Shown one piece after another: positions 6,830 through 64,000 of a DNA stretch of 64,000 nucleotides. The notes beneath the pieces were generated by a model. It searched no databases, was not told the DNA's origin, and was given only the letters and a program-made list of their open reading frames with translations. This DNA comes from Mumia xiangluensis. GTDB lineage: Bacteria; Actinomycetota; Actinomycetes; Propionibacteriales; Nocardioidaceae. The position numbers were made by a program, and so were the translations under genes. Numbering within the stretch: the first letter of the stretch is position 1; each line of letters opens with the position of its first letter. The stretch covers positions 744,001 through 808,000 of the forward strand of contig NZ_WJYO01000001.1 of the NCBI RefSeq assembly GCF_010994095.1, given 5' to 3'.

Positions 6830-7692
6830 TCTCGCTCGCCAGCGGGTCGTGGACGGCCACGATCGACCCGTACGGCGCCGGTCTCGCGTCGCTGCGCCGC
6901 GACGGGCGCGACGTGGTGGTGCCGCGCGTCGCGGGTGACGGAGGATTCCCCTTCTACCGGGGGGCCGTGCTCGCGCCCTGGCCGAACCGGCTCGAGGACG
7001 GCGCGTACGACTTCGGCGGGCGCTCCCACCAGGTGCCGGTGAACGAGCCGGAGGGTGGCACGGCGCTGCACGGCCTCGTCGTCGAGCGCGCCTGGACGGT
7101 GGTTGACCAGCGCGGCGACGCCGTACGCCTGACGGTCGACGTGCCGCGGTCCGACGGGTACCCGTACGCCGTGCGGCTCGACCTCGCGTACCAGCTCGGC
7201 CCCGACGGCCTCGCTTCAGAGCTCGTCGCCACGAACGACGGCGCCGAGCCTGCGCCGTACGGGTGCGGCGTCCACCCCTATCTCGTCCTGGACGAGGGGG
7301 AGGCGACCGAGGTCGAGCTCGGGGCGGGCCGCTACCTGGAGTCCAGCCCCGACCGGAAGCTCCCGGTGGGCCTGCACGACGTCGACGGGTCGGCGTACGA
7401 CTTCCGCGTGCCCCGCCCGCTCGACGGGGCCGAGCTCGACACCCCGTACACGGACCTCGTCCGGAGCGACGACGGCGTCGTCACCGTACGCGTCGGGCGC
7501 ACCGTGCTGCGCGGCACTGAGGGCGTGCGGTGGATCCAGGTGTACACGCCGGTCGGGCGCGGATCCCTCGCGGTCGAGCCGTGCTCCAGCCCGGCGAACG
7601 CCTTCCGCACGGGCCAGGACCTCGTCGTCCTCGCGCCCGGCGAGCAGCACACGCTGGCGTGGACGCTCTCGCGACCCCCGCTGGTCGCGTAG
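6826..7692 (+). CDS. Aldose 1-epimerase family protein
   Basis: 288 residues from the GTG that overlaps the preceding stop (GTGA). Conserved histidines are in GGTALHGLV and GCGVHPYLVL, and the catalytic base glutamate is likely in SLAVEPCSSPANAF, as in GalM/YihR mutarotases, which interconvert alpha and beta anomers of hexoses. The last residues (RPPLVA-stop) are encoded by the first unit of a dispersed repeat array, so the natural C-terminus has been replaced or extended by repeat sequence. Confidence 0.87.
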   Translation: MISLASGSWTATIDPYGAGLASLRRDGRDVVVPRVAGDGGFPFYRGAVLAPWPNRLEDGAYDFGGRSHQVPVNEPEGGTALHGLVVERAWTVVDQRGDAVRLTVDVPRSDGYPYAVRLDLAYQLGPDGLASELVATNDGAEPAPYGCGVHPYLVLDEGEATEVELGAGRYLESSPDRKLPVGLHDVDGSAYDFRVPRPLDGAELDTPYTDLVRSDDGVVTVRVGRTVLRGTEGVRWIQVYTPVGRGSLAVEPCSSPANAFRTGQDLVVLAPGEQHTLAWTLSRPPLVA

Positions 7693-7849
7693 CGGCCCTC
7701 GCTGGTCGCGTATCCCCCCCTCGCTGGTCGCGTATCCCTCCTCGCTGGTCGAGTATCCCCTCCTCGCTGGTCGAGTAGCGGCGAGGAACGAGCCGCGTAT
7801 CCCCTCGCTGGTCGAGTAGCGGCGAGGAACGAGCCGCGTATCGAGACCT
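7676..7849 (+). repeat. Tandem copies of the dispersed GCTGGTCGAG...TCGAGACC repeat
   Basis: Six units start with CGCTGGTCG (near 7678, 7700, 7721, 7743, 7765 and 7806). The first four are short 20-22 bp versions ending GCGTAT or GAGTATCCC; the last two are full units of the form GGTCGAGTAGCGGCGAGGAACGAGCCGCGTAT, the last ending TCGAGACC. The array begins inside the aldose epimerase gene, whose stop it supplies, and ends 17 bp before the bpa start. Confidence 0.85.
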
Positions 7850-14222: not shown

Positions 14223-14316
14223 TCCCGTTTGCCACGCTCCCACCGCAAACGCCTGCCGTGCACCGCATATATACGGTGCGCGGGGCGTACTTGCGGTGGG
14301 AGCGTGGCAAACGGGA
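14223..14316. repeat. Composite palindromic element, copy 1
   Basis: A perfect 26-bp inverted repeat (14223-14248 against 14291-14316; core TTTGCCACGCTCCCACCGCAA) surrounds a 42-bp centre holding a second small hairpin GCACCG-catatata-CGGTGC (14260-14279). The whole could fold into a long cruciform or RNA stem. Related modules recur at 14460-14543. Intergenic; no coding sense. Confidence 0.8.
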
Positions 14317-14459: not shown

Positions 14460-14543
14460 TTGCAGTGGGAGCACCGCAAGTGCCGCCAGTGCACCGCGAA
14501 TTTGCGGTGCAGCGCGGGTGTTTGCGGTGGGAGCACCGCAAAC
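14460..14543. repeat. Composite palindromic element, copy 2 (diverged)
   Basis: Shares modules with copy 1: TTGCAGTGGGAGCACCGCAA (14461-14480), a central hairpin GCACCGC-gaattt-GCGGTGC (14492-14511) and TTTGCGGTGGGAGCACCGC then AAA (14522-14543), the last being itself an 8-bp stem TTTGCGGT/ACCGCAAA. Here the outer modules are direct, not inverted, repeats. It ends 4 bp before the 3' end of the GH65 gene, where it may also act as that gene's terminator. Confidence 0.65.
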
Positions 14544-14546
14544 GCC

Positions 14547-17042
14547 CTACGGGTGGGGAACGGTGGCGGTGATGATGGAGCCGTCGGCTCGGCGTACGCC
14601 GTCGAGCGGACCCGGGCCGGGCGTGGGGCCGAGCGCGGGACCCTGACCGTCGAGGGGTACGACGACCGGCTCCTTGGCGGTGACATGCACGATCTTGCCC
14701 CGTACGGAGAGCTTGGCGCCCGCGCCCTGCTCGACGCTGAGCTCGATCGACTCGGCGCTCACGCGGACGCGCAGCCGTGATCCGCGGAGCATCACGCGGT
14801 AGGTGAGGCTGTCCCACCCGGCGGGCAGCCGCGGGTCGATCGAGAACTCGCCGTTGTAGTCGCGGAACCCGCCGAACCCGCTGACCAGAGCACTCCACAC
14901 ACCGCCGGTCGAGGCGACGTGGACGCCGTCGGAGGCGTTGCCGTGGAGGTCGGCCAGGTCGACGTACAGCGCCTCGGTGAAGTAGCGCACCGCGAGGTCG
15001 GAGTAGCCGACCTCGGCAGCGATCAGCGACTGCACGACGGCCGACAGCGTCGAGTCGCCGGTGGTGATCGGGTCGTAGTACTCGAAGTCGTTGCGCTTCT
15101 GCTCCACCGTGAACTGGTCGCCCTGCAGGTACAGCGCCAGTACGACGTCGGCCTGCTTGAGCACCTGGAACCGGTAGATCACGAGCGGGTGGTAGTGCAG
15201 CAGCAGGGGCCGCTGCTCCGCCGGCGTGTGCGCGAGGTCCCACACCTCCCGCTCCAGGAAGTGCGAGTCCTGCGGGTGGATGCCGAGGTGCTCGTCGTAC
15301 GGGATCGCCATCGCCTCGGCGGCGCGCTCCCACTCGTCGATCTCGTCCGGGTCGAGGTCGAGGCGTGCCATCATCCGGGCGTACGCCTGGGGCCACGCCG
15401 ACTCGAGCTCGCGGACCGCGCGTGCTGCGCGTCGCAGGTTGAACCGCGCCATGACGTTCGTGAACAGGTTGTCGTTGACGACCGTCGTGTACTCGTCCGG
15501 ACCGGTGACGCCGTGGATGTGGAACGACCCCGCGCCTTCATTGCGCCAGAACCCGAGGTCGGCCCACATGCGGGCGGTCTCGACCAGGATGTCGACGGCC
15601 TCCCGCATGAGGAAGTCCGTGTCGCCGGTCGCGTCGACATAACGGCTCAGGGCGTACGAGATGTCCGCGTCGATGTGGTACTGCGCGGTGCCTGCGGCGT
15701 AGTACGCAGACGCCTCCTCGCCGTTGATCGTGCGCCACGGGAACAGCGCCCCGCGTTGCGAGAGGTCGCGCGCGCGGCGCCGAGCGGCGGGCAGCATGTT
15801 GTACCGGAAGCGCAGCGCCGCCCGCGCGAGCTGCGGATAGACGTAGGTCAGGAACGGCAGGACGTAGATCTCGGTGTCCCAGAAGTAGTGGCCGCCGTAG
15901 CCGGACCCTGTCACGCCCTTCGCCGGGATGCCGGCACCCTCGGCGCGCGCGGAGGCCTGTGCCACCTGGAAGAGGTTCCACCGCATCGCCTGCTGGAGGG
16001 AGTCTTGACCGCCGATCTCGACGTCGGCACGGGCCCAGAAGGAGTCCAGCCACGCCTTCTGGTCGCTGAACTGGCGTCCGATGCCCTCACCGTCGACACG
16101 GTCGAGCGTGCGGCGGCAGCGGTCGAGGAGCTCGCGGGCCGGCACGCCGCGTGACGTGTGGTAGGCGGCGACCTTCGTGAGCCGGATCGTGTGGCCCGGT
16201 TGCGCGTCGACCTGGTAGACGACCTTGGCCATGTCCTCCTCGACGTACATGCGCCGCTGGACCGGGTCGGGAGTCTCGATCGTGTGGTCGGCGCCGACGC
16301 CCAGGGTCATCCCCGACTCGGCGGCGCGGTAGCCGAGCAGGACCCGCGCGCAGCTCTCGTCGACGTCTTGGAGCTGGGGCTCGAGCACCCGTCGCCCGAA
16401 GCGCTCGGCCTTGCGGGGGTCGGCGCCCTCGCCCATCGCGGCGGCCCGCACGTGGTACTCGTCCTCGCCGTCCTGCCGGTTGAGCAGCTGGCACGACAGT
16501 GTGATCGGGGCTGCAGCGTCGAGGACAGTCACCTCGAAGGTCATCACGGCGAGGTGGCGCTGGGTGAACGAGACCATCCGCTCCGAGCGGATCCGGACCC
16601 GCTTGCCGGCCGGCGTGCGCCACACGATCTCGCGGGTGAGCACACCGGTCCGGAAGTCGAGAGAGCGCTCGTAGTCGATGAGGTCGGCGACGGGGAGCAG
16701 CAGCGGCTCGTCGTCGACGTACAGGCGGATCACCTTCGCGTCGGGCGCGTTGACGATCGTCTGCCCGACGCGGGCGAACCCGAACGCCTCCTCGGCGTGG
16801 TTGATCTTCCAGGTCTCGTGGAAGCCGTTGACGAAGGTGCCGTGCGCGTACGACTCGCGGCCCTCCTCGACGTTGCCGCGCAGGCCGAGGTAGCCGTTGC
16901 CGAGGGCGAACAGCGTCTCCGTACGACCGAGGTCGTCGGCGCTGTAGAAGCGCTCGACGAGGCGCCAGCGGTCGACCGGCCAGCGGTGCCGGTCGAGGTA
17001 GTCGGAGACGTGGCGCGGGCTGTCGCGCGGGACCGGGGTCAC
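14547..17042 (-). CDS. Glycoside hydrolase family 65 disaccharide phosphorylase (trehalose/maltose/kojibiose type)
   Basis: 831 residues, usual for GH65. The N-terminal domain has NGYLGLRGNVEEGRE; the catalytic (alpha/alpha)6 barrel has GVTGPDEYTTVVNDN with the general-acid glutamate, and WDTEIYVLPFLTY. Phosphorolysis of an alpha-glucosyl disaccharide gives beta-glucose 1-phosphate and glucose. The GTG start overlaps the stop of the beta-phosphoglucomutase gene (GTGA), which would convert that product to glucose 6-phosphate; the pair forms a complete route. Which disaccharide is used cannot be decided from the sequence. Confidence 0.88.
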   Translation of the reverse strand: MTPVPRDSPRHVSDYLDRHRWPVDRWRLVERFYSADDLGRTETLFALGNGYLGLRGNVEEGRESYAHGTFVNGFHETWKINHAEEAFGFARVGQTIVNAPDAKVIRLYVDDEPLLLPVADLIDYERSLDFRTGVLTREIVWRTPAGKRVRIRSERMVSFTQRHLAVMTFEVTVLDAAAPITLSCQLLNRQDGEDEYHVRAAAMGEGADPRKAERFGRRVLEPQLQDVDESCARVLLGYRAAESGMTLGVGADHTIETPDPVQRRMYVEEDMAKVVYQVDAQPGHTIRLTKVAAYHTSRGVPARELLDRCRRTLDRVDGEGIGRQFSDQKAWLDSFWARADVEIGGQDSLQQAMRWNLFQVAQASARAEGAGIPAKGVTGSGYGGHYFWDTEIYVLPFLTYVYPQLARAALRFRYNMLPAARRRARDLSQRGALFPWRTINGEEASAYYAAGTAQYHIDADISYALSRYVDATGDTDFLMREAVDILVETARMWADLGFWRNEGAGSFHIHGVTGPDEYTTVVNDNLFTNVMARFNLRRAARAVRELESAWPQAYARMMARLDLDPDEIDEWERAAEAMAIPYDEHLGIHPQDSHFLEREVWDLAHTPAEQRPLLLHYHPLVIYRFQVLKQADVVLALYLQGDQFTVEQKRNDFEYYDPITTGDSTLSAVVQSLIAAEVGYSDLAVRYFTEALYVDLADLHGNASDGVHVASTGGVWSALVSGFGGFRDYNGEFSIDPRLPAGWDSLTYRVMLRGSRLRVRVSAESIELSVEQGAGAKLSVRGKIVHVTAKEPVVVPLDGQGPALGPTPGPGPLDGVRRADGSIITATVPHP

Positions 17043-17830
17043 GCCGCACCCCCGGCCAGCGGATCGCCTTCGCTGGTTGAGCGAGCCTGCGAGTCGAAAC
17101 CACCCACGAGCTCGCCGAGGTCGTCCACCACGACGTCCGCGCCATGGTCGGTCAGCACCTGGTGGCCGGCGCCCCGGTTCACGCCGATGACCAGCCCGAA
17201 GTCGCCGGCCGCTCCGGCCTCGACCCCGGACACGGCGTCCTCGACCACGATCGCGCGCTTGTCGTCCGCACCGAGGGAGTGGGCGGCGTACGCGAAGGTG
17301 TCCGGCGCGGGCTTGCCGGGGAGTCCCTGGGCTCGCGCGACGCTCCCGTCGACGACGACCGGGAAGCGGTCGGCGATGCCGGCCGCGGCGAGGACGTCGG
17401 GTGCGTTGGCCGAGCTGGAGACGACGGCGAGGCCGATCGGCAGCGTGGCGAGGTGGTCGAGGAGGGCGACCGACCCGGGGTACGCGGTGACGCCGTGCAG
17501 GGACAGCTCGCGCTCGAACTCGGCGTTCTTGCGGTTGCCGAGACCGCACACCGTCTCGGCGGTCGGCGGGTCGGCGGGATCGCCCTCGGGCAGGACTATG
17601 CCGCGCGCGGCCAGCAGGGAGCGTACGCCGTCGTAGCGGGGCTTGCCGTCGACGTAGGCGTAGTAGTCGGCGGAGGTGTACGCGGGGGCGATGTCGTGCT
17701 CGGCGAAGTACGCGTCGAACAGGGCCGCCCAGGCGCGCATGTGCACCTCGGCGGTCGGGGTCAGAACCCCGTCGAGATCGAACAGGACAGCGTCGTAGTC
17801 GGCCCAACGGACCAGCGGCGAGTCGGTCAC
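17039..17830 (-). CDS. pgmB: Beta-phosphoglucomutase (HAD superfamily)
   Basis: 263 residues from a GTG start. Motif I FDLDGVLTPT with the nucleophile and acid/base aspartates, cap motif EVHMRAW, motif II SSSAN, GKPAPDTF lysine motif and motif IV VVEDAVSGVEAG identify the beta-PGM branch, which turns beta-glucose 1-phosphate into glucose 6-phosphate. Upstream partner of the GH65 phosphorylase. The C-terminal residues FDSQARSTSEGDP are encoded by a copy of the dispersed repeat (17071-17101), so the last 20 or so residues are not part of the enzyme fold. Confidence 0.87.
   Translation of the reverse strand: MTDSPLVRWADYDAVLFDLDGVLTPTAEVHMRAWAALFDAYFAEHDIAPAYTSADYYAYVDGKPRYDGVRSLLAARGIVLPEGDPADPPTAETVCGLGNRKNAEFERELSLHGVTAYPGSVALLDHLATLPIGLAVVSSSANAPDVLAAAGIADRFPVVVDGSVARAQGLPGKPAPDTFAYAAHSLGADDKRAIVVEDAVSGVEAGAAGDFGLVIGVNRGAGHQVLTDHGADVVVDDLGELVGGFDSQARSTSEGDPLAGGAA
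17071..17101 (+). repeat. Dispersed repeat (GGTTGAGCGAG...TCGAAACC type) inside pgmB
   Basis: CGCTGGTTGAGCGAGCCTGCGAGTCGAAACC. It lies within the final codons of the minus-strand beta-phosphoglucomutase gene and is read in frame as part of its C-terminus. Confidence 0.85.
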
Positions 17831-20733: not shown

Positions 20734-20770
20734 GCCCGTTTCCGTCCCGTCCCCGACCCCCGCCGCCGCC

Positions 20771-20845
20771 CCGTCCGCGATTCGGGCAGTTCGGGTACGA
20801 ATCAGGGTGCGGACTCGTACCCGAACTGCCCGGATCGGGGACGGG
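20771..20845. repeat. Palindromic element A (conserved outer, variable inner stem)
   Basis: Perfect 18-bp inner arms CGGGCAGTTCGGGTACGA (20783-20800) and TCGTACCCGAACTGCCCG (20815-20832) are flanked by CCGTCCGCGATT on the left and GGATCGGGGACGGG on the right. Two more elements with the same outer sequence occur at 21830 and 25864. It overlaps the last 15 codons of the minus-strand DUF559 gene. Confidence 0.8.
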
Positions 20846-23123: not shown

Positions 23124-24352
23124 GGGTTCTCCGTCCCGTCCGCCAACCAGCGGCGGACTTCGTCGTCGTGCTGTCCGAGAAGCGGGGGCGCGGTCGGCGC
23201 CACGGGGGTGCTGCGTGAGTACGTGATGGGGTGGCGCACCTGCGCCGGGTGGCCGTCGCCGACCTCGACGGTCGGGTCCAGGCCGAGCTCACGGGCACGC
23301 GCGATCGCGGTGCCGATGTCACCGACCTCGCCCACCGGGACGTCCGCGGCCGACAGGCGCCGCTGCCACGCGGCAGCGGTGTCCGCGGCGAGGGCGTCCT
23401 CGAGTGCGACGACCAGCGCCGTGCGGTGGGCGACCCGGTCGCCGTTGGTGGCGAAACGAGGGTCGTCGGCGAGCTCGGGGTGTCCGATGCCTTTGCAGAG
23501 CCGGGCGAACTGGCCGTCGTTCCCGCAGGCGACTGCGATCGTCCCGTCGGCGCAGCGGAGCGTCTCGTACGGCGCGATCGACGGGTGCTGGTTGCCCATC
23601 CGGCCGGGTGCCGTGCCGGTGGTGAGATAGCTCGACGCCTGGTTGACGAGCGACCCGAGGAGACTCGAGAGCAGGTTCACCTCGACGTGCTGGCCGAGGC
23701 CGCTGCGCTCACGCTCGGCGAGGGCGGCGAGGATCCCGATCACGGCGTCCTTGCCGGTGAGCACGTCGACCAGCGCGACCCCGGCCTTGGTCGGCTCGCC
23801 GTCCGGGTCGCCGGTGATGCTCATGAGACCGCCGACCGCCTGGACGACGAAGTCGTACCCGGGGAGGTCGGCACCGGCGCCGCTGCCGTAGCCGGTGATC
23901 GAGCAGTAGACGAGGCCGGGATTGTCCGCGGACGCCGCGTCGTACCCGAGTCCGAGGCGGTCGAGCGCGCCGGTGCGGAAGTTCTCGACGAGCACGTCTG
24001 CCCGGCGTACGAGGGTGCGGGCGAGCGCGAGGTCGGCGTCGTCGCGCAGGTCGAGGGTGATGCTGCGCTTGGTGCGGTTGGCGCTCTCGAAGTACGAGGC
24101 GGTGCCGCTCGCGGTCCACGGCGGACCCCACTGGCGGGTGTCGTCGCCGGAGCCCGGGCGCTCGACCTTGATGACGGTCGCGCCGAGGTCCGCGAGCATC
24201 GACGTCGCCATCGGGCCCGCGAGGACGCGGCTGAGATCGGCGACGACGATCCCCTCCAGCGGCGCGCTTGCAGTTCCCCCTCGCTGGTTGAGCGAGCGGA
24301 GCGAGCGCCGTCCTGAGCGAGCGAAGCGAGTCGAAGGGTCGAAACCGCTCAC
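23120..24352 (-). CDS. CaiB/BaiF family CoA-transferase, probable glutarate CoA-transferase
   Basis: 410 residues from the GTG that overlaps the stop of the aldehyde dehydrogenase gene (GTGA). Family III motifs: VADLSRVLAGP, LADLGATVIKVERPGSGDDTR with the expected catalytic aspartate downstream in KAGVALVDVLTGKDAV, and GLGQHVEVNLL. Next to a GCDH-like enzyme it probably moves CoA from succinyl-CoA to glutarate. The first ~25 residues (GFDPSTRFARSG, RSLRSLNQRGG) are encoded by a dispersed repeat copy; the enzyme proper begins at about APLEGIVVADL. Confidence 0.83.
   Translation of the reverse strand: MSGFDPSTRFARSGRRSLRSLNQRGGTASAPLEGIVVADLSRVLAGPMATSMLADLGATVIKVERPGSGDDTRQWGPPWTASGTASYFESANRTKRSITLDLRDDADLALARTLVRRADVLVENFRTGALDRLGLGYDAASADNPGLVYCSITGYGSGAGADLPGYDFVVQAVGGLMSITGDPDGEPTKAGVALVDVLTGKDAVIGILAALAERERSGLGQHVEVNLLSSLLGSLVNQASSYLTTGTAPGRMGNQHPSIAPYETLRCADGTIAVACGNDGQFARLCKGIGHPELADDPRFATNGDRVAHRTALVVALEDALAADTAAAWQRRLSAADVPVGEVGDIGTAIARARELGLDPTVEVGDGHPAQVRHPITYSRSTPVAPTAPPLLGQHDDEVRRWLADGTENP
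24279..24347 (+). repeat. Dispersed repeat, expanded copy, forming the N-terminus of the CoA-transferase
   Basis: Begins CGCTGGTTGAGCGAGCGGAG and ends GCGAAGCGAGTCGAAGGGTCGAAACC, with an internal GAGCGAG duplication and a CCTGAGCGAGC segment. It occupies codons 4-26 or so of the minus-strand gene. Confidence 0.8.
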
Positions 24353-30419: not shown

Positions 30420-32144
30420 ATGTCTATGTCGCCCACGCCGCCCTGGGACGCGTACGACGTCCCGCTGGCGTGGTTGCTCGACCAGGAGGAGCTCGCGCTA
30501 CGGCTCGTCGAGCCGGCCCTCCCTCCGCTGGTCGAGGCGCCCCTTCCTCCGCTGGTCGAGGCGCCCCTCCCTCCGCTGGCCGAGCCGGCCCTCCCTCCGC
30601 TGGTTGAGCGAGCGCAGCGAGTCGAAACCCCCTCCCCGCCGCTTCCTCCGCTGGTTGAGCGAGCGCAGCGAGTCGAAACCCCCTCCCCGCCCCACCCCAC
30701 CTCCGTCGCCATCCGCTGGGCCCACTCGATCGAGATCCTCGACCCGACGCCCTTCCTGCGCGGCGGCGAGCTGGTCCTCACCACCGGCCTGCGGATGCCG
30801 CGGGCACGCGCCGAGCAGGCGGCGTACGTCGACCGGCTCGCCGCGGCAGGTGTGGTGGGGCTCGCCTTCGGCGTCGGGGTCCGGTTCGAGACGATCCCGG
30901 TCGGCCTGCGCCAGGCGTGCCGTCGTGTCGGGATGCCGCTGGTGGAGGTGCCGCTGCCGACGCCATTCGTGGCGATCACGCAGGCCGTCGCCGCGCGGCA
31001 GGCAGAGCTGCAGAACGCGGTGACCCGGCGCGCGTTCGCGTTCCAGCAGCAGATGACGCGGGCTGCGCTGGAGGGCGGTACGGCGGGGCTGACCGCGGCG
31101 CTCGCGCGTGAGCTCGGCGCCGGTGTCGTGGTGCTCGACGAGTTCGAGACCACGGTCGCCGTCGCGGGCGCGGATGACGTCCTCATGGGGCGGGTCGCCA
31201 TCGAGGTAGAGAGCCTCGCGGCGCGACCGGGCCCCGCGAGTGCCACGGTCGTCTCCGGGGAGAGCACCCTGGCGGTGCAGCGGCTCGGTGGTCTCGAGCG
31301 GGCGAGCGGGTGGCTGGCGGTCGAGGTCCCGGGGGCGATCTCGGTGGGCGACCGCCTGCTGCTGAACCAGGCGGCGTCGCTGCTCACCCTCCAGCGGGAG
31401 CGGCCGCGCGAGCTGGTCGACGCGCGGCACCGGCTGGGCGCGACGGTCCTGGAGCTGCTCCTCGACACCGACGTCGTCGCACCTGCGGTCGTGCGGCACC
31501 TGGGTCACTTCGGGTTCGAGCCCGCCGACCGGGTGCGGATGGTGCTCGCAGCACCCGGCCACGGTCGTACGGCGCCGCTCGACGTCGTCGCGCACGCGCT
31601 GGACGCGGAGTCGGTCGCGCACGTCGAGGCCCGCTCCGGCGACGACGTCCTCGTGCTCGTCCGTGATCAGGACGCGCACGCGAGCGTCGAAGCAGTGGTG
31701 GACGCCCTCGCCCGGGCGAGCAGGCACGACGTCGTCGTCGGAGTCAGTGGCGCACTGCCGACGGCGAGGGCTGCGGCGGGCCGGTCGGGCGCGACGCACG
31801 CGGCGGCGTCGGCGCGGGCGTCGCACGAGCGGGTCGGCTGGTACGGGACCTTGACGCTGGAGGCGATCCTCGCCGACGACGCCGTACGCGCGCGGGTTGC
31901 CGCGCTGGCCGAGTCGCCGTTGGCGCCCCTGCTCGAGGGCAGCACGGAGCGCGATCGTGTGCTGGTGGAGTCGCTTGAGGTGTTCCTGCGACACAACGGC
32001 TCGTGGGAGACGGCGTCGCGCGCGCTCGGTGTCCACCGGCACACGCTGCGCAACCGGATGGCGCGGGTCGAGGAGCTGACCGGGGCGCGGCTCGACGTCG
32101 CCGAGGATCGGGTGGCGCTGCTCCTCGGCCTCCTCGCGCGATAG
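30420..32144 (+). CDS. PucR-family transcriptional regulator with a repeat-derived insertion
   Basis: 574 residues from the ATG at 30420. The N-terminal PucR sensory domain starts VPLAWLLDQEELALRLVEP and resumes at VAIRWAHSIEILDPTPFLRGGELVLTTGLRMP; between them, about residues 30-90, is a proline-rich insert PALPPLVEAPLPPLVE... with two ERAQRVETP blocks, read in frame from dispersed repeats. The centre is a GGDEF-like/CdaR region, and the C-terminus is the PucR helix-turn-helix (NGSWETASRALGVHRHTLRNRMARVEELTG). Likely regulates the divergent amine-catabolism cluster. The insert probably forms a disordered loop. Confidence 0.85.
   Translation: MSMSPTPPWDAYDVPLAWLLDQEELALRLVEPALPPLVEAPLPPLVEAPLPPLAEPALPPLVERAQRVETPSPPLPPLVERAQRVETPSPPHPTSVAIRWAHSIEILDPTPFLRGGELVLTTGLRMPRARAEQAAYVDRLAAAGVVGLAFGVGVRFETIPVGLRQACRRVGMPLVEVPLPTPFVAITQAVAARQAELQNAVTRRAFAFQQQMTRAALEGGTAGLTAALARELGAGVVVLDEFETTVAVAGADDVLMGRVAIEVESLAARPGPASATVVSGESTLAVQRLGGLERASGWLAVEVPGAISVGDRLLLNQAASLLTLQRERPRELVDARHRLGATVLELLLDTDVVAPAVVRHLGHFGFEPADRVRMVLAAPGHGRTAPLDVVAHALDAESVAHVEARSGDDVLVLVRDQDAHASVEAVVDALARASRHDVVVGVSGALPTARAAAGRSGATHAAASARASHERVGWYGTLTLEAILADDAVRARVAALAESPLAPLLEGSTERDRVLVESLEVFLRHNGSWETASRALGVHRHTLRNRMARVEELTGARLDVAEDRVALLLGLLAR
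30510..30697 (+). repeat. Array of dispersed repeats inside the pucR-family gene
   Basis: Five units beginning CCGCTGG(T/C)(C/T)GAG near 30525, 30549, 30573, 30597 and 30648. Three are short 24-bp versions ending GGCGCCCC or CCGGCC; two are full TGGTTGAGCGAGCGCAGCG...TCGAAACCCC units. Total length is a multiple of three, so the reading frame survives. Confidence 0.85.
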
Positions 32145-32156: not shown

Positions 32157-32403
32157 CCCCGCTGGTCGAGTAGCCCGAGCCGCACCCCGCCCCAGCTGGT
32201 CGAGTAGTCCGAGCCGCACCCCGCCCCCGCTGGGCCGCACCCCGCCCCGCTGGTCGAGTAGTCCGAGCCCCTAGGCGAGGACGTATCGAGACCGGTGAAC
32301 GGATCTCGATACGCGCTCCGCCAGGGCTCCGCGCTACTCGATCGGCGGGGTGGTGGGCTGCGCGCTGCTCGATCGGCGGGGTGGTGGGCTCCGCGCTATT
32401 CGA
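32157..32403. repeat. Intergenic cluster of dispersed repeats in both orientations
   Basis: The 320 bp between the PucR gene and the next gene hold about four plus-oriented units (GCTGGTCGAGTAG(C/T)CCGAGCCGC, one with CCTAGGCGAGGACGTATCGAGACC) followed by inverted units (GATCTCGATACGCGCTCC..., three ending TACTCGATC, TGCTCGATC, TATTCGATC with GGCGGGGTGGTGGGCT spacers). No gene is present. Confidence 0.8.
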
Positions 32404-34431: not shown

Positions 34432-34550
34432 CCGCTCGTCGAGGCGCGAAGCGATCGAGACGGGGTCTCGATACGTCCTCCGCTGGCGCTCCGAACTACT
34501 CGACCAGCGGAGGGGGCTGGCGCTCCGGACTACTCGACCGGCGGAGGGGG
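34432..34550. repeat. Dispersed repeat cluster, opposing orientations
   Basis: Contains CTCGTCGAGGCGCGAAGCGATCGAGAC followed by inverted units GGTCTCGATACGTCCTCCGCTGGCGCTCCGAACTACTCGACCAGCGG and GGCGCTCCGGACTACTCGACCGGCGG. Fills the gap between the TfoX-type and the reductase genes. Confidence 0.8.
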
Positions 34551-40939: not shown

Positions 40940-41064
40940 CTCGCTGGTTGAGCGAGCGCCCTCCCGCCCGCTGGTTGAGCGAGCGCAGCGAGTCGAAACC
41001 CCCGGCTCGCTGGTTGAGTGGCGCGCTCCCCTCGCTGGTTGAGCGAGCGCAGCGAGTCGAAACC
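40940..41064 (+). repeat. Array of dispersed GGTTGAGCGAG...TCGAAACC repeats
   Basis: Four units begin CGCTGGTTGAG (near 40941, 40969, 41007, 41033); two are full with GCGCAGCGAGTCGAAACCCC, two are shortened. Lies between the convergent stops of the permease and the SDR. Confidence 0.85.
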
Positions 41065-45053: not shown

Positions 45054-45240
45054 CGCTGGTCGAGGCGCGAAGCGATCGAGACCCCCGCTGGTCGAGGCGC
45101 GAAGCGATCGAGACCACCCTCCGCTGGTCGAGTAGCCCGAGCCGCCGAGATCTCCGCTGGTCGAGTAGCCCGAGCCGCTAGGCGAGGGCGTATCGAGACC
45201 ACCTACCTCCGCTGGTCGAGGCGCGAAGCGATCGAGACCC
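45054..45240 (+). repeat. Five direct copies of the dispersed GCTGGTCGAG...TCGAGACC repeat
   Basis: Units begin CGCTGGTCGAG near 45054, 45087, 45122, 45156 and 45210. Three are GGCGCGAAGCGATCGAGACC types (about 30 bp); two are TAGCCCGAGCCGC types, one with CTAGGCGAGGGCGTATCGAGACC. All in the same orientation. Ends 33 bp before the antitoxin gene that opens the foreign-looking region. Confidence 0.88.
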
Positions 45241-53273: not shown

Positions 53274-53301
53274 ATGGCCGCTCCCCACATTGTCGAACCT
53301 G

Positions 53302-54167: not shown

Positions 54168-54263
54168 TCACCTAGGCCCCGGCCGATCACATAGTGGAAC
54201 GCGAAACCGCGGTTTGGTCCCGAAACGGCGGCGCCACGGGCAGGGATCCGATAACTTTCGGGG

Positions 54264-54815
54264 GTGACCTCGGGGGCGTTTGCAGCTGACTTGCCAGCCG
54301 CCGTGGTTGTCGACATGGACGGGACTTTGTGCGATGTGCGCGCAGTCAGCCACTTCGTGAAGAAGCCACCGAACGGTGGTTCGTTCCGTCGAGACTTCGC
54401 GGCATTTCATTCCGGATCGCTGGAGTGCCCACCGTTTCCGGAAGTAGTGCAGCTGCTTCAGAAGTTCCGCGACGACGGACACCTCGTTCTGGTCGTCTCC
54501 GCTCGCGAAGCACGTTGGGCGTTCCTGACCGCCCTGTGGCTGGATGAGCACGCCATCGCCTACGACGAGATGTTCCTGAGAGCAAACGGCGACTACCGTC
54601 CGGACGCGGTCATCAAACGGGAAATCGCCGAGCGGATCACTCGCCGCTTCCGGCCACGGTTAGCGATCGACGACCGCGACGAGATCATCCAAGTGTGGCG
54701 TTCCTGCAACATACCCACCGCGAAGGTTCTGGAGAACGGCGCGGTCATCGGACCTGGTGAGGATCAAGAAGTCTTGCTGCCTAACAAGCCGGGCGAAGGC
54801 CCAGGAGGCGTCTGA
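54264..54815 (+). CDS. HAD-superfamily protein of the polynucleotide kinase 3'-phosphatase type
   Basis: 183 residues from a GTG. HAD motif I AVVVDMDGTLCDVRAV, motif II VLVVSAREARW, the helix YDEMFLRANGDYRPDAVIKREI and motif IV RLAIDDRDEIIQVWRS match the phosphatase half of T4-type polynucleotide kinase, which removes 3'-phosphates (or 2',3'-cyclic phosphates) from nucleic-acid ends. No kinase domain. One base separates its stop from the next gene, so it is co-translated with the large ATPase. A plain nucleotide phosphatase is possible. Confidence 0.78.
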   Translation: MTSGAFAADLPAAVVVDMDGTLCDVRAVSHFVKKPPNGGSFRRDFAAFHSGSLECPPFPEVVQLLQKFRDDGHLVLVVSAREARWAFLTALWLDEHAIAYDEMFLRANGDYRPDAVIKREIAERITRRFRPRLAIDDRDEIIQVWRSCNIPTAKVLENGAVIGPGEDQEVLLPNKPGEGPGGV

Positions 54816-54816
54816 C

Positions 54817-57153
54817 ATGACTCAGGTAGATCTTCCCTCAACCTACGAGGCCATCTCCCGAATCGGTGAGGCTCTGCACCGCTCTCGCAATCCCCGATCT
54901 CTGGGGCCTCGGTTCGACCGCCTGACCGACGAGCAACTCGACAGCCGTCGTTTCGACTACATCAAGCATCAGAACTACGAACCAGCGGCGAAGGCCTCCC
55001 TGGAATTGCTGCGTCGTGCGATCCAGATTGCCTTGAAACAGTCGACGCCCAAGAACCACCAACGAGTCATCGTCGCACTGGCCTGGCTGATCAGGGGGGC
55101 TTCGGTACCGAAAAGGTCGGCCACCGGTCGACAGATGGTTCACGAGGTGAACGGCGGAGTCGAAGGATTCCCAAGGTCGCTGCGCCAGTGGGTAAGCAAT
55201 GGTGGGCACATCAACGCTCGTCACCTGACCGAGCTCACGGGATGTACGCCGCAGGAGTGGCGAACCTTCGTTGATCAAGTGACTGCCACAACGAAATTCG
55301 TTGTTGCGCCCGCGGCTGATCGCATACGGATCGAGGACCGTACGCCGCTGGACCTGGACGTGGCCACGCGGCTGGCCCGCATAGCGTCTTCGGCAACAAG
55401 CAGTGCGCCGGTCGATCGGTTGCCGGAGTACGACCGGTCCGATGCCAAGCTCCGGGTAACAGAGGTGTCCGTCGTCGGCTTCAGAGGATCGCCAGCGCGG
55501 GTGGCTTTGGACCTGACAAAGAACGGCAAGCCCGTCGACATCCTCCTTTGGGGAGATAACGGGGTCGGCAAGTCAACCCTTGTTGATGGCCTTGAGTTCG
55601 CCCTCCAGGGGCGTGTGGATCGGTCGTCAGACTTCACAAGTGGGTTGCGACCGAAAGTGCGCAATCTGTTGTCGCCAAAGGCGGCAGCCAATGTCACGCT
55701 GAGTGACGGCAGCCGAGTCGAGCGCTCACTCGTGACGAACGGCAACGGTCGAGACACCCCTTCACATCTTGATGTCCGAGCCGGCTTCAGAATCGCCCCC
55801 ATCGTGATCCGACGGGCCGACATCCTCCGCTTCCTTGATGCCGATGCTCTCTCTCGCGGCGCCGTCTTCTTTGACTACTTCCCAGAGGCGTCGGGCGCGC
55901 TCGGGGTCCGTCCGGACGAGGAATTGAAGCTCCTGGAGGAGGAACGTTCCTTGCTCCGAGTCGTGCGTGCGGACCTAGCCGAACAACTTCAGACGCTCTA
56001 TCCCGACCAGCGTAGGGACTTGGGCATTGCAACCGAGCTCGACGCGTTTGTGCACGATCTCCTCCTGGAGGTCAGTGACGCGCCCGGCGAGGCGGCCGTC
56101 GATGCCCTCCCGGAAACTGTCAGGGAACTCGTTCATGAACTGAGAGAGGCGCAGAACCGCTTGCGCTCCATCAAGAAGAGGCTCGAACGAGGCGTCGAGT
56201 TGCTCAATCCTCGTGCGTACAAATCTCAGTTCGACCGGGTGGTTCCCGCGTTGCAGTCGGTGGGCGGCGAGCTCACGGACAGCTTCATAACCATCACCCG
56301 GGCCAAGCACGTGGTTGCTTTGGACGTGCTGGTAGCCAAGTCCGGCCCAATGAGCCTTGACGTCGTCGTCCGGTTCGACAATGGCACCGCAGCCCTTCCC
56401 CAGCAGGCGTTCAGTGAGGGATACAAGGACTTGGTGGCACTGCTTTTCTTCCTTGCCGTAACCAAAAAGGCGGGAGATCTGGGGCAGGCGAAGGTACTCG
56501 TTCTGGACGACGCTCTGCAGAGCGTCGACGCGAGCGTGCGCGTGGGCGTCATGGACTACGTGCTGCAAAACTTCAAGGACTGGCAGCTCGTCATCACCGG
56601 TCATGACAGAGGATGGCTAGCTCAAGTCCGAGGGCTGTTCAGTCGACGAGGACGGTCCGTGGTGGAGCGCACAATCGCGCGTTGGACGTTCTCTGAAGGA
56701 ATCCATGTCACGGGTGCCACACGGCTACGCATAGAAACGCTGAGGGCGGGCCTAGAACAGCACGATGAACGCATGACATCGGCCGCAGTCGGCATCCTGC
56801 TAGAGGAGATCTGCCACGAGCTGAGCTGGCGCGTGGAAACAAGTGTTAAGCGGAGAGAAGGCGATCGCTACACGATTGGTGACATGTGGCCTGGACTGTG
56901 CAAATTGCTTCGGACTGTGGGCCTTGCCGAAACGGTGGACAGCGTAAACCAGCGTCTGGACCTCCGGAACCTGCTCGGCGGCCACTTCAATGACTTCGCG
57001 GAGAGCATCCCTTGGAGTGACGTCGAGGTGCTGGCGGAGGATGTGCTCCATCTCTATGAGGCGGTCCACTGCGACCAGTGTGGCGCGTGGATTCGGAAGG
57101 TCACTGACAAGACCTACTTGTGTACATGTGGCGCCCTCTCCCTGACGAAGTAG
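54817..57153 (+). CDS. SMC/RecF-like AAA ATPase with C-terminal zinc ribbon
   Basis: 778 residues from ATG 54817 with AGGAGG 8-9 nt upstream. A ~220-residue helical N-terminus precedes the ATPase head: VVGFRGSPARVALDL, Walker A GDNGVGKST at 246-254, a coiled-coil region, signature FSEGYKDLVALLFFLAV, Walker B KVLVLDDALQSVD and H-loop ITGHD. After another helical part the last 30 residues hold CDQCGAW (C752, C755) and CTCG (C769, C771), a zinc ribbon. Partner of the 3'-phosphatase-like protein; together they could sense or repair broken nucleic-acid ends. Confidence 0.8.
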   Translation: MTQVDLPSTYEAISRIGEALHRSRNPRSLGPRFDRLTDEQLDSRRFDYIKHQNYEPAAKASLELLRRAIQIALKQSTPKNHQRVIVALAWLIRGASVPKRSATGRQMVHEVNGGVEGFPRSLRQWVSNGGHINARHLTELTGCTPQEWRTFVDQVTATTKFVVAPAADRIRIEDRTPLDLDVATRLARIASSATSSAPVDRLPEYDRSDAKLRVTEVSVVGFRGSPARVALDLTKNGKPVDILLWGDNGVGKSTLVDGLEFALQGRVDRSSDFTSGLRPKVRNLLSPKAAANVTLSDGSRVERSLVTNGNGRDTPSHLDVRAGFRIAPIVIRRADILRFLDADALSRGAVFFDYFPEASGALGVRPDEELKLLEEERSLLRVVRADLAEQLQTLYPDQRRDLGIATELDAFVHDLLLEVSDAPGEAAVDALPETVRELVHELREAQNRLRSIKKRLERGVELLNPRAYKSQFDRVVPALQSVGGELTDSFITITRAKHVVALDVLVAKSGPMSLDVVVRFDNGTAALPQQAFSEGYKDLVALLFFLAVTKKAGDLGQAKVLVLDDALQSVDASVRVGVMDYVLQNFKDWQLVITGHDRGWLAQVRGLFSRRGRSVVERTIARWTFSEGIHVTGATRLRIETLRAGLEQHDERMTSAAVGILLEEICHELSWRVETSVKRREGDRYTIGDMWPGLCKLLRTVGLAETVDSVNQRLDLRNLLGGHFNDFAESIPWSDVEVLAEDVLHLYEAVHCDQCGAWIRKVTDKTYLCTCGALSLTK

Positions 57154-57267
57154 AGCAACATCGGACACTGACTTGCGCAGGTTGATGTCGCGCTTGGTGG
57201 TGTGTTTGTGCTGGTCAGCGGGGTGCGGGGCGGCGGAGTGGCACACTAAGGCGGCTAGGTTTCGGGC
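57154..57267. other. Gap after the ATPase gene
   Basis: No gene seen. TTGTGTACATGTGGCGCC belongs to the gene end; the following sequence contains GGTGGTGTGTTTGTGCTGG and no clear terminator hairpin. Confidence 0.3.
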
Positions 57268-57500
57268 GTGGTGTTCCTGCGGAAGGTCAAGACGGCCTCG
57301 GGTGCGATCGCTGTCCAGATCGCCCGCAAGGAACCGCCGTGTGGTCGTGATCGAGCATCTCGGCTCAGCCCACACCGAGGCCGAGTTGGCTACGCTCGTG
57401 CAGACGGGTCGCCGCAACATCGAGGAAGGGCAAGGGGTCCTCGACCTCGGCCTGGACGCCACGCGGGATCCCAACTCAGGCTCGAGGTCGAAGACGGTGG
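57268..57500 (+). pseudogene. IS1634/IS4-type transposase N-terminal remnant
   Basis: MVFLRKVKTASGAIAVQIARKE in one frame continues as RRVVVIEHLGSAHTEAELATLVQTGRRNIEEGQGVLDLGLD in another, the opening of IS1634-like transposases of actinobacteria. A frameshift after about 24 codons and loss of everything beyond ~75 residues show decay. It bounds the right side of the island together with the IS256 remnant on its left part. Confidence 0.75.
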
Positions 57501-57743
57501 ATCGATCCGCGAAACGGCCGCGTCGATCCGCCGCGAATGACTCGGCTGATGCATCGTCGAGGGCAACCGAGGCTGGTCTTGGCAGGCCGGTCCTCCCCCA
57601 CTGAATCGCGCCCCTCAACACTCGGGGTAACCCGGAGGCAACCTAGTCAGCGGCAACTGCATCGATGCCTTCCAGAACGGCACGGCCCGCGCGGGGACTC
57701 GTACGGAATCGTCATCGACAAGTCCCCGACAACGTCATCGGCA
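57501..57743. other. Non-coding gap right of the IS remnant
   Basis: About 240 bp with no recognisable gene, repeat or terminator. Confidence 0.35.
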
Positions 57744-58148
57744 CTAGGGAGCGATGATCCGACGACGCAGTTCGTTGTAGATGAAGGAGTGTTCAGGGAA
57801 GTCAGCGGGGCCACGCCACGGATACGGCCATTCGCCGCGCAACCACTTCAGCACCCCGGCAGGCTCGGGGTGGCAGCCCGTGACGTGCGCTGCATCGACG
57901 ACCTCGGAGATTTCCCTCTCGCCGAGTCGGCACCAACCGATGCTGTCCTGCCCAATTGCGTACAAGAGCCAGACTGGCGAATCGTCCAACGTTTCGCACG
58001 CGCACAACCAGATCGCGTATGTCGCAACCAGCCGCTCGTCTCGCAGCGCTTGCGCGCCAACTGATGGTGCGGCGGCCGCATCGAGGATCCGCTCGACGAG
58101 CGCGACGCTGGGGTCCTCAGGCTGTGGGCGATCCCGGCGGGAGAGCAT
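57744..58148 (-). CDS. Protein of unknown function
   Basis: 134 residues from ATG 58148. Segments AALRDERLVATYAIWLCACETLDDSPVWLLYAIGQDSIG and PEPAGVLKWLRGEWPYPWRGPADFPEHSFIYNELRRR look protein-like, with many tryptophans, but no domain was recognised. Divergent from recC with a 72-bp gap, and convergent with the IS remnant. Frame support is moderate: the composition differs from shadow frames, and the start has no clear ribosome binding site. Confidence 0.5.
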   Translation of the reverse strand: MLSRRDRPQPEDPSVALVERILDAAAAPSVGAQALRDERLVATYAIWLCACETLDDSPVWLLYAIGQDSIGWCRLGEREISEVVDAAHVTGCHPEPAGVLKWLRGEWPYPWRGPADFPEHSFIYNELRRRIIAP

Positions 58149-58220
58149 CGCGCCATGCTACGGCGACATTCCGTCGCCGAGTGGGGGTTGTTTGCGTTGC
58201 GGGTTGGTTAGGGTCACGGC

Positions 58221-61586: not shown

Positions 61587-64000
61587 CCGACGCGATGACC
61601 AGCTTCGACATCACCGCGCCACTCCCGTCGGGGACGACGCTCATCGAGGCGAGCGCGGGCACCGGCAAGACATGGACGCTGTCGGCGCTCGTCGTCCGGT
61701 ACGTCGCAGAGCAAGGCCGGTCGCTCGCCGAGCTGTTGATCGTCACCTTCAGCCGCGCGGCCAGCCAGGAGCTGCGCGAACGCGTCCGGGCTCGGATGGC
61801 GGAGTCGCTCGCCATCCTGCAACGGGGCGATGCCACGGACGACGTCCTGATCAACCACCTCCGCGACTGCACCGCCGACGAGCTCGCGGTGCGCATCGAT
61901 CGCCTCGCCACCGCCGTGGCCGACTTCGACACGGCGACCATCGCGACCATCCACCAGTTCTGTCACTACGTGCTGAAGGGCCTGGGCGTTGCCGGCGACT
62001 CCGACTCGTACGCGACGCTGGCGGAGGACCTGACCGAGCTGCAGGCGGACGTCGTCGACGACCTCTACCTCGCCGAGCACGCGACGGGCGCGACGCTCGA
62101 CTACAAGCAGGCCCAGACCGACGCGCAGATCGCACTCGACAACCCAGGCGCGGTGCTGTCGCCCGCCAACCCGACCGGGCCCATCGCGACACGGCTGGCC
62201 TTCGTCGAGAAGGTCCGCGCCGAGGTCACGCGGCGCAAGCGCAGGGCGGCGTTGCTCGGCTACGACGACCTCCTCAGCGAGCTCGCCGACGCGTTGGAGG
62301 CTGACGACAGCCCGGCACGGCGGCGGATGCGCGAACGCTGGTCGGTCGTACTGGTCGACGAGTTCCAGGACACCGATCCGGTGCAGTGGCAGGTGTTCTC
62401 CAGGGTGTTCGCGACCGACGATGAGGGGTTTCGACTCGCTTCGCTCGCTCAACCAACGGAGGCTTCGCTCGCTCAACCAGCGGGGGGTAAGACGCTCGTC
62501 CTGATCGGCGATCCGAAGCAGGCGATCTACGCGTTCCGCGGCGGCGACGTGGCCACGTACCTGCTCGCCGCCAAGACGGCGACGACGCGGACGTCGCTGC
62601 CGACGAACTACCGCAGCGATGCGCCGTTGGTCGACGCGCTGCAACGGCTGATGGCGAACGTCCAGCTCTCGCCTGGCATCGTCGCCCACCCGATCACCGC
62701 CCAGAGGACGGCGCACCGGCTGCAGGGAGCGCCGGACAACAGCCCTCTCCGGCTGCGGGCGATGCTGAGCAGCAAGAAGCTCGCGATCGGGACGGTACGA
62801 GAGAACGTCTGCGCCGACGCTGCCGCCGACATCGCGCGCCTGCTCACCTCCGGCGCCACGTTCGACGACTCTCCGGTACGACCCCAGCACATCGCGGTCC
62901 TGGCGCACACCAACCGCGACCTGCATCTTATGCGGACGGCGCTGCGTACGCGCGGGATCCCGTCCGTCCTGGTCTCCAGCGAGTCGGTCCTTCGTACGAT
63001 CGCCGCTGAATGGTGGCTTCACCTGATGATGGCGCTGGAGCAGCCGCACCGCCCCGAACGCCTTCGCCTGGCGGCGCTCACGCCGTTCCTCGGGTGGACG
63101 GTGGAGCAGCTGGATGCCGACGGGGACCAGGGGACGGAGGCGATCTCTGCACAGGTGCGCTCCCTGGTCGCGGCGTATCACCGCGGCGCCATCGCCGCCG
63201 TACTCGACGTTGCTCGCAGCCAGGGTCTCGACGCGCGCGTGTTGTCGCAGGTCGGAGGCGAGCGCGATCTGACCGACATCGAGCACTGCGCCCAGCTCCT
63301 GCAGGAGCACGTACTCGACGGGACACGTGCGCTTCCGAGCCTGGTCGCCTGGCTCAGGCAGCAGAGCGCGGACGACACGGCGACCACCGCGGCGTCGCGG
63401 ATCATGCGGCTCGACTCCGACGCCCTGGCCGTCACCTTGTCGACGATCCACGGCAGCAAGGGCCTGCAGTATCCGATCGTGTACGCGCCATTCCTGTTCG
63501 ACCACTGGATGCGGGACGACCCGACGCCCGCGATCATCCACCGCGACGGGCAACGGGTGCTCTCCTTCGATTCGACCGAGGTGAACAAGCCCGAGCACCG
63601 CTCCGAGGCGCTCGGCGAGAACATGCGCCTGGCGTACGTCGCGATGACGCGGGCCCAGTCGCAGGTCGTCGTCTGGTGGGCTCCCACGTGGAACACCGCC
63701 AACTCGGCCCTGCACAGGCTCCTGTTCGGACAGGCCGACTCTGCCGAGCAGCTCGAGTCGTTGCTTGCTGCTCGCGCACAGGGTGGCGATGGTGACGTGG
63801 TGGTTCCTGCTGAGCAGGTGCCGCTGAAGGACGGAGCGACCTCCGAGCACATCCTCCAGACCTGGGCGGCTCACGGCGCGTTCAGCCTCACCGAGGTCGA
63901 CGGCGATCGGCGCGCGCCGGAGGTCCCGGCCGAGCAGGCGACGACACCCCTGGCAGTGCGGGGTTTCGACCGCTCTTGGGTCGACCAGGTGTGGCGCCGA
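61583..64000 (+). CDS. recB: RecBCD enzyme subunit RecB, N-terminal part (runs off the window)
   Basis: Open for 806 codons to the window edge. Walker A EASAGTGKT at 22-30, motif Ia VTFSRAASQELRERV, TIHQFCHYVL, motif II VVLVDEFQDTDPVQW, motif III VLIGDPKQAIYAFRGGD, motif IV LPTNYRSD, motif V STIHGSKGLQYPIVY and motif VI RLAYVAMTRAQ are complete, so the helicase motor looks intact. Between motifs II and III a repeat-encoded peptide (FRLASLAQP, TEASLAQPAGG) is inserted in frame. The nuclease domain lies beyond the window, as presumably does recD. Confidence 0.93.
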   Translation, partial: MTDAMTSFDITAPLPSGTTLIEASAGTGKTWTLSALVVRYVAEQGRSLAELLIVTFSRAASQELRERVRARMAESLAILQRGDATDDVLINHLRDCTADELAVRIDRLATAVADFDTATIATIHQFCHYVLKGLGVAGDSDSYATLAEDLTELQADVVDDLYLAEHATGATLDYKQAQTDAQIALDNPGAVLSPANPTGPIATRLAFVEKVRAEVTRRKRRAALLGYDDLLSELADALEADDSPARRRMRERWSVVLVDEFQDTDPVQWQVFSRVFATDDEGFRLASLAQPTEASLAQPAGGKTLVLIGDPKQAIYAFRGGDVATYLLAAKTATTRTSLPTNYRSDAPLVDALQRLMANVQLSPGIVAHPITAQRTAHRLQGAPDNSPLRLRAMLSSKKLAIGTVRENVCADAAADIARLLTSGATFDDSPVRPQHIAVLAHTNRDLHLMRTALRTRGIPSVLVSSESVLRTIAAEWWLHLMMALEQPHRPERLRLAALTPFLGWTVEQLDADGDQGTEAISAQVRSLVAAYHRGAIAAVLDVARSQGLDARVLSQVGGERDLTDIEHCAQLLQEHVLDGTRALPSLVAWLRQQSADDTATTAASRIMRLDSDALAVTLSTIHGSKGLQYPIVYAPFLFDHWMRDDPTPAIIHRDGQRVLSFDSTEVNKPEHRSEALGENMRLAYVAMTRAQSQVVVWWAPTWNTANSALHRLLFGQADSAEQLESLLAARAQGGDGDVVVPAEQVPLKDGATSEHILQTWAAHGAFSLTEVDGDRRAPEVPAEQATTPLAVRGFDRSWVDQVWRR
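62425..62487 (-). repeat. Dispersed repeat (two units) inside recB
   Basis: On the minus strand: CCGCTGGTTGAGCGAGCGAAGC, then CTCCGTTGGTTGAGCGAGCGAAGCGAGTCGAAACCC. The 63 bp keep the recB frame and encode about 20 residues between helicase motifs II and III. Confidence 0.85.

Follow-up and report, generated by a model that had tools for sequence, protein, structure and literature searches.

A 64,000-nt stretch of the Mumia xiangluensis genome (the window, positions 744001-808000 of contig C1) carries many copies of a short palindromic repeat whose units are a family of imperfect hairpins with an unpaired 5' tail, a GGTY/RACC basal stem and tandem G·A mismatches. On balance, these units are probably a non-autonomous element akin to repetitive extragenic palindromes (REPs) and to the REP doublets forming hairpins known as REPINs, acting as a single-stranded DNA hairpin that would be mobilised in trans. 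The tail and hairpin, the doublets found in some species and the sporadic bursts in copy number resemble REPs and REPINs moved in trans.

In the window, the left box GCTGGTYGAG, with at most one mismatch, gives 99 matches versus 16.1 expected (highest shuffle 25), and the right box TCGARACC gives 23 versus 8.0 expected (highest shuffle 17). An earlier, sequence-only reading of the window had described nine clusters of such units, all of which were recovered in place, and had called for a search of the complete genome (G000; 4.62 Mb in 9 contigs). There the two-box pattern GCTGGTYGAG…TCGARACC is matched 227 times and the reversed-pattern control 0 times. Overlapping matches are each counted, even when they share one right box, so distinct units are fewer than 227; in 404 kb of this genome, 114 two-box matches correspond to 88 distinct right boxes. 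Five congeners (G064, G049, G021, G038 and G057) served for comparison.

Hairpin structure and classes of the unit

The units fall into four classes. Class A has the form GCTGGTTGAGCGAGC-GNA-GCGAGTCGAAACC and class B the form GCTGGTCGAGGCGC-GAA-GCGATCGAGACC, class C (GCTGGTCGAGTAG...CGTATCGAGACC) has a longer and variable stem, and the short class, the predominant form in G049, is the 22-base GCTGGTYGAGCCTGTCGARACC. From the tail inwards, a unit comprises the basal stem, a tandem G-A mismatch, a stretch of stem that varies in sequence and stays self-complementary, in many cases another tandem G-A, and a short loop. In M. xiangluensis, the 5' tail CCGCT carries 1.15-1.77 bits at positions -5 to -1, compared with at most 0.47 bits on the 3' side. 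In the genomes of the named-species loci, defined as the 78 stretches that carry an exact class A 31-mer, the tail is strong only at GCT (1.15-1.89 bits, -3 to -1).

The base of the stem covaries. Its pair is C-G in 64, T-A in 42 and otherwise in 4 of the M. xiangluensis units (n=110); the corresponding figures are 9, 149 and 8 in the named-species loci (n=166) and 23, 8 and 2 in the loci of the genus (n=33). In G049, all 60 rows, some of which overlap, are T-A or C-G despite a pattern that permits mixtures. When the core alone is fixed and 500 shuffles serve as the control, the outer bases are paired at all four positions in 146 of 171 class A cores (shuffles at most 126), a figure favoured by the exact GGTT/AACC pattern through which the named-species loci were retrieved. 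They also pair in 92 of 109 class C cores (at most 87) and in 23 of 44 short cores, chance matches included (at most 14); for class B, 34 of 35 cores are paired, but the shuffles reach 34 and the test has no power. The compensated alternatives in the outer stem are CGTT/AACG, GATT/AATC, GATC/GATC and CGTC/GACG.

In DNA, tandem G-A mismatches and GNA loops have exceptional stability. Among 98 distinct units, hand-picked with obvious chance matches dropped, an inner tandem G-A bordered by Watson-Crick pairs is present in 73 (mean of 200 shuffles 8.6, maximum 18), 39 of them with a GNA loop; the count of outer pairs is 219 versus 11.5. Folding with DNA parameters favours the unit strand over its complement in 96 of the 98 (mean -7.3 versus -5.7 kcal/mol). 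The unit had also been credited with few stop codons, a property that varies with the class: in one example per class, 5, 6 and 5 of six frames are open for classes A, B and short, and 3 of six for class C.

Units within genes of the window and its relatives

The unit arrays of the window are the following.

7678..7848, plus strand: aldose 1-epimerase array, with degenerate left halves at 7680, 7701, 7723, 7744 and 7766
7807-7848, plus strand: full class-C-like unit closing the aldose 1-epimerase array
17072..17101, plus strand: class A unit at the 3' end of a HAD-type (pgmB-like) gene
24283..24346, plus strand: class A unit at the N-terminus of a minus-strand CoA-transferase family III gene
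24312..24337, plus strand: nested second hairpin with a CCT/AGG stem (CCTGAGCGAGCGAAGCGAGTCGAAGG), directly before the TCGAAACC of the CoA-transferase unit
30503..30680, plus strand: pucR array, with left halves at 30503, 30527, 30551 and 30575 (24-bp period)
30599-30629 and 30650-30680, plus strand: full class A units ending the pucR array
32161..32293, plus strand: class C group downstream of pucR, with left halves at 32161 and 32195 and a full unit at 32249-32293
32302..32343, minus strand: inverted unit with the compensated outer stem GATC/GATC, forming an inverted pair with 32249-32293
34434..34542, both strands: mixed group of a degenerate class B unit (plus, 34434-34462), a full class C unit (minus, 34464-34508) and a class C half (minus, 34519-34542)
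40943..41064, plus strand: cluster behind a FecCD gene, consisting of a half, a full class A unit (40970-41000), a half and a full class A unit (41034-41064)
45055..45239, plus strand: cluster of two class B units, a class C half, a full class C unit (45156-45200) and a class B unit (45211-45239)
62423..62488, minus strand: recB insert, with a full unit (62427-62457) and a left half (62462-62481)

Nesting similar to that at 24312..24337 was seen once in G049, and the cluster at 45055..45239 is in part common to G064. The five genes that the sequence-only reading took to be touched by units are all touched, with corrections to the peptides. Pfam agrees with the names aldose epimerase, PucR and CoA-transferase family III, and identifies "pgmB" as a HAD hydrolase and RecB as a UvrD-type helicase. 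The aldose 1-epimerase gene stops at 7692, within its array, while the unit in the pgmB-like gene (17039-17830, minus strand) supplies the C-terminus GFDSQARSTS EGDPLAGGAA. The CoA-transferase insert lies in frame behind codon 2 of the likely start (MS-GFDPSTRFARSGRRSLRSLNQRGGTA-SAPLEG), and the pucR array encodes PLVEAPLP... PLVERAQRVET, the latter twice. The recB insert lies in frame between helicase motifs II and III and encodes EGFRLASLAQPTEASLAQPAGG; the peptide once assigned to it, GFDSLRSLNQR, belongs to another frame of that unit, the frame in use giving FRLASLAQP, read as EGFRLASLAQPTEASLAQPAGGK. The companion claim that unrelated proteins share a peptide is borne out for LVERAQRVET, used in PucR and recurring nearly identically, as PLVERA(Q/R/K)RVET, in CobN, NarJ and a thiamine pyrophosphate (TPP) enzyme of the same genome.

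In all six genes compared (aldose epimerase, pgmB, CoA-transferase, pucR, recB and cobN), the segment is missing from some congeners. The aldose epimerase end is free of units in G064, G049, G021 and G038. The pgmB segment is missing from the same number of congeners, cleanly in G049, G021 and G038, and G064 has a different sequence there that contains no full unit. The CoA-transferase segment is missing from both congeners compared, G064 and G038. At the pucR site, M. xiangluensis carries class B-type halves followed by two class A units, G064 a single class B unit, and G049, G021 and G038 none (a comparison made among the congeners other than G057). About 65 residues of CobN are missing from G064 and from eight other genomes read, and in G057 another segment occupies that position; cobN found no match in three congeners.

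Between motifs II and III of RecB, G038 and G021 are unit-free and read RAFATEDKTLVLIGDPKQ, G049 reads GFRQAQPAG, G057 has a short-class unit plus additional halves, G064 has one class A unit, and M. xiangluensis has the same unit plus one half, the four inserts all being in frame. At least two placements are indicated, since the insert of G049 and G057 substitutes for ATE(D) and that of G064 and M. xiangluensis retains ATDD; the within-genus tree gives no order for these gains. No unit was found between these motifs in 21 further loci (L107-L127), nor in two distant relatives (L129 and L130), L128 being unreadable. In recB, pucR and cobN alike, other species carry different unit classes at about the same codon. 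Units in frame in conserved proteins and missing from orthologues, as in the Rickettsia palindromic elements (RPEs), thus occur in recB, pucR, the CoA-transferase and cobN.

Further in-frame copies lie in an FhuF-type gene, the nitrate reductase delta subunit (NarJ), the N-half of a transketolase, the TPP enzyme and an FAD oxidoreductase, and elsewhere in an Mfd-type helicase of Leucobacter celer and in a DAHP synthase and a lyase of G049. A RecD-like helicase gene of G049 (L138:13804-13972) holds five short-class units in frame; recD, the one gene among these additional copies compared with its orthologues, already reads GTCGAGACC, the 3' end of the unit, at the empty sites of G021 and G057 and not at that of G064. 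Over the classes, coding insertions use both strands and five reading frames. That the element spreads and inserts into coding sequence in frame is supported by segments missing in congeners and by other classes at the same codons. The same peptides in orthologues of distant relatives, named by the sequence-only reading as a refutation, were not seen in those examined.

Copy number, placement and probable growth of clusters

Among 149 genomes of the host's family, 124 contain at least one match, the low counts being near chance, and 18 genomes spanning five genera contain at least 40 (maximum 371). Within the genus, the counts are 227, 123, 110, 60, 55 and 0, the zero belonging to the sister species G038. 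The exact class A 31-mer is present in at least 78 stretches from nine species of Gordonia, Leucobacter, Microbacterium and Metallococcus, the near kin of the window being left aside, and is identical in Gordonia and Leucobacter, which belong to different orders. Such patchiness is unexpected under plain vertical descent. A loose pattern gave one match per contig among the viral contigs listed, and one class A array used as a query gave no match in plasmids. Cluster density is higher near the assumed origin: from there to the terminus, successive fifths hold 39, 5, 15, 10 and 8 clusters in G064 (class B-type pattern) and 13, 8, 4, 6 and 4 in G049.

Placement was assessed for strict units and genes called with a simple codon-usage caller, and copies of one cluster are non-independent in all the counts that follow. 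The count inside and outside genes proposed by the sequence-only reading places 76 of 86 units in the 404 kb of M. xiangluensis in intergenic sequence and 10 within 8 called genes, though 87% of this sequence is coding. In the named-species loci (n=122), 116 are intergenic, 2 lie inside genes and 4 overlap a gene end; in syntenic stretches of the genus, picked for recB, 6 of 16 lie inside genes. Co-directional, convergent and divergent gaps hold 43, 25 and 6 M. xiangluensis units versus 103, 32 and 64 of all gaps (p 3e-5), and 38, 52 and 4 named-species units versus 218, 60 and 78. Within co-directional gaps, orientation along rather than against transcription shows a weak bias (29:14 in M. 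xiangluensis, 23:15 in the named-species loci and 4:0 in the genus).

Many left arms stand without a right arm (93 of 178 in the M. xiangluensis loci), and such halves tend to come first. Among the clusters with halves, 26 of 28 in M. xiangluensis start with a half and 1 ends with one; the corresponding numbers are 32 and 6 of 33 in the named-species loci, 6 and 2 of 6 in the genus, and 2 and 0 of 2 in G019, G061 and G123. A step of 21-25 bp separates a half from the following arm in 45 of 65 M. xiangluensis cases; in pucR and recB this step is 24 bp, or 8 codons. This order probably reflects growth from a founding full unit, in which a placed unit would gain tandem left-half copies on its 5' side when the polymerase slips at the hairpin or the hairpin is repaired, and clusters would in this way come to run half-half-full. 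In the M. xiangluensis and genus loci, 32 of 33 class A halves do not extend beyond the loop end, and 14 of these stop before the apex; in the named-species loci, 10 of 47 extend beyond the loop. SbcCD, the bacterial Mre11-Rad50, is reported to cleave hairpins on the 5' side of the loop (PMC6265447). Such cutting would fit the truncation point of the halves and may be regarded as a lead; the SbcD model gave matches, all below the cut-off, in 5 of 6 genus genomes.

Inverted pairs are prominent in some species. In G019, 26 of 28 plus-minus neighbours lie at 48 bp and 60 of 71 units have an inverted neighbour, and in G123 the inverted-pair count is 13 of 13. The pairs of both genomes enclose 48 bp and are separated from one another by 16 bp, which is the REPIN arrangement. 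An inverted neighbour was found for 70 of 158 named-species units and for 23 of 108 in M. xiangluensis, where 58 have direct neighbours only and 27 are single. In the arrays of about 166 bp in G019 (L148-L155), the 48-bp spacer looks conserved by eye, and the stems vary widely and stay self-complementary.

Explanations for the spread and relation to known repeats

If the units are mobilised in trans, a putative enzyme would recognise, on one strand, the tail together with the G-A base of the hairpin and would copy the unit, or an inverted pair, to new sites. Such an enzyme seems not to be a Y1 transposase, the type known as REP-associated tyrosine transposase (RAYT). Several results weigh against this reading. 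The Y1/RAYT model PF01797 (E 0.001) found nothing in M. xiangluensis or in any of the 18 high-copy genomes. Reverse transcriptase (PF00078) is present in 24 of 149 genomes, that is, in 3 of 18 high-copy ones (G075, G089 and G136) versus 21 of 131 others. No transposase-like gene was seen among the 25 largest clusters of recurring neighbour genes in the M. xiangluensis stretches and the 78 named-species loci, clusters that by eye seem ordinary. Counted by cluster, two complete genomes show no replication-strand bias (14/35 and 36/77). Consistent target duplications, which the sequence-only reading had anticipated, were not found at the recB, pucR, CoA-transferase, aldose epimerase or pgmB junctions, and the recB insert of two species replaces a few codons. 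On the structural side, 25 of the 98 units, including the short class and units with GGA/GGA loops, lack the inner G-A motif as defined, and to this the retrieval bias in the class A pairing count and the hand-picking of the 98 must be added. The best RNAfold DNA fold, moreover, often places TCGA/TCGA pairing at the base, over which GGTY/RACC is preferred as the basal stem on account of the Y-R covariation.

Some of these results have bounds of their own. PF01797 is positive in 2 of 149 family genomes, neither of them high-copy, and in 5 of 14 controls, Escherichia coli included. The Y2 transposase model PF04986 matched nothing anywhere, controls included, which makes that search uninformative. 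Reverse transcriptase shows no association with high copy number and was not found in the genus of the window. GACC and GCT repeats at two junctions could be due to chance, and the relatives are too diverged to exclude short duplications. The strand test took a dnaA-like motif near base 1 as the origin and assumed the terminus opposite, GC skew giving no clear signal, and relied in G064 on a class B-type pattern alone. By copy, the figures are 17/50 in G049 (p 0.03 towards one strand, tandem arrays weighing heavily) and 41/91 in G064 (p 0.4). A class A strand switch near 740 kb, suggested by the listed matches, was discarded, the full lists of the two complete genomes showing no bias by cluster.

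Spread by the host alone, in which hairpin breaks or polymerase stalls are followed by microhomology-mediated template switching or end joining without a dedicated enzyme, is less probable but constitutes a serious rival, since mixed classes at one place, nested units and target replacement resemble copying errors between repeats. It would account for the failure to find a mobiliser by PF01797, PF00078 or neighbour clusters, for the mixture of classes at a single site in recB, pucR and cobN, for CCT/AGG nesting at a like point in two species, for the stopping point of the class A halves in M. xiangluensis and its genus, for replaced codons in recB, and for the presence of GTCGAGACC at the empty recD sites of G021 and G057, though that of G064 lacks it. 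However, the tail and the G-A mismatches are conserved, whereas mismatches should be lost under template switching alone; the bursts differ from species to species, and an identical 31-mer occurs in different orders. In addition, class A halves in the named genomes sometimes pass the loop, and the SbcD-type nuclease that would fit the truncation point is matched below the cut-off only. A putative trans-acting enzyme is the first choice over host-only copying.

An ordinary RAYT-mobilised REP or REPIN, with a transposase too divergent for PF01797 or lost after the spread, appears improbable. The tail and hairpin, the REPIN-like inverted doublets and the intergenic placement do match REPs (PMC3116915, PMC3733652), but a model that detects 5 of 14 controls finds nothing in 18 high-copy genomes of five genera. 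Still less likely is a function at the RNA level, in which the hairpin, once transcribed, would terminate or stabilise messages, as has been suggested for REPs. The gap preference and the orientation excess in M. xiangluensis and the other loci would suit it, subject to the non-independence of clustered copies, yet both orientations are common, coding insertions occupy both strands, the sister species G038 has no unit, and a Rfam 15 scan of the window placed no unit above the gathering score, two tRNAs being the only entries listed. That the shared peptides are conserved protein segments rather than insertions can practically be dismissed: PLVERAxRVET does recur in four unrelated proteins, but the segments are missing from orthologues, the classes are read in five different frames and most M. 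xiangluensis units are intergenic. As an extension of mobilisation in trans, it is tentatively proposed that Actinobacteria possess a class of single-stranded DNA elements in which a non-Y1 enzyme would read tandem sheared G-A pairs and the (CC)GCT tail, with movement between orders, REPIN-like units in some species and recurrent in-frame inserts in the same RecB, PucR and CobN loops.

Miniature inverted-repeat transposable elements (MITEs) are non-autonomous and dispersed and have inverted symmetry, as do the present units, which may differ from them, no consistent target duplication having been seen at the junctions compared and no cognate transposase having been found. As high-copy, short, imperfect and mainly extragenic hairpins, the units correspond to REPs. 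Di Nocera et al. (2013) described GTAG and CGTC REPs in eight phyla; Actinobacteria are not among the phyla of the Results, nor does the word occur in the text (PMC3733652). Like these REPs, the units are short hairpins that bear a conserved unpaired tag at one end and lie mainly between genes and near gene 3' ends, and, like CGTC REPs, they have no known transposase. The same source places REPs within many genes, recBCD included, and at about the same site in recB of two Xanthomonas species, and the units likewise have some in-frame genic copies, recBCD among them. Unlike GTAG/CGTC REPs, they carry the tag GCT or CCGCT, with GTAG occurring only internally in class C, and a GGTY/RACC stem with tandem G-A mismatches. 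RPEs, as described there, are likewise palindromes in frame in proteins. The earlier claim that coding use of such repeats had not been described was thus too strong, given these published in-frame REPs and RPEs. The fixed-spacing inverted doublets and tandem clusters of G019 and G123 resemble REPINs as defined by Bertels and Rainey (2011; PMC3116915); M. xiangluensis differs in having mostly single units and direct arrays, with no RAYT found.

A literature search with the unit strings and the topic returned REP and MITE papers on other groups and no relevant description, most subscription journals lying outside its reach. The kind of element is already known; the family with the CCGCT/G-A structure was not found in the literature searched and is hence not shown to be unpublished. 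Current models tie REPs to RAYT, and here an abundant REP-like, partly REPIN-like family exists where no RAYT was found; its covarying structure is precise enough to be used in hunting for the mobilising enzyme. The same-site series in recB, pucR and cobN (empty, short and long) bear on how proteins tolerate new segments and on whether insertions into recBCD affect repair.

Three other features of the window stand apart from the family. The region 45300-58200, with a G+C content of 0.57-0.66 versus about 0.71, encodes AAA proteins, a DUF3800 protein and a Mutator-type transposase fragment, contains no repeat cluster and looks like a recently acquired island. A long palindrome at 14223-14316, with 47-nt arms that are 83% complementary and no spacer, is unrelated to the unit and overlaps a larger inverted repeat with 14472-14544. 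Furthermore, a second palindromic repeat of 88 bp (CCCGTCC...GGGACGGG) occurs at 20770-20857 and 25864-25951, the two copies being 74% alike.

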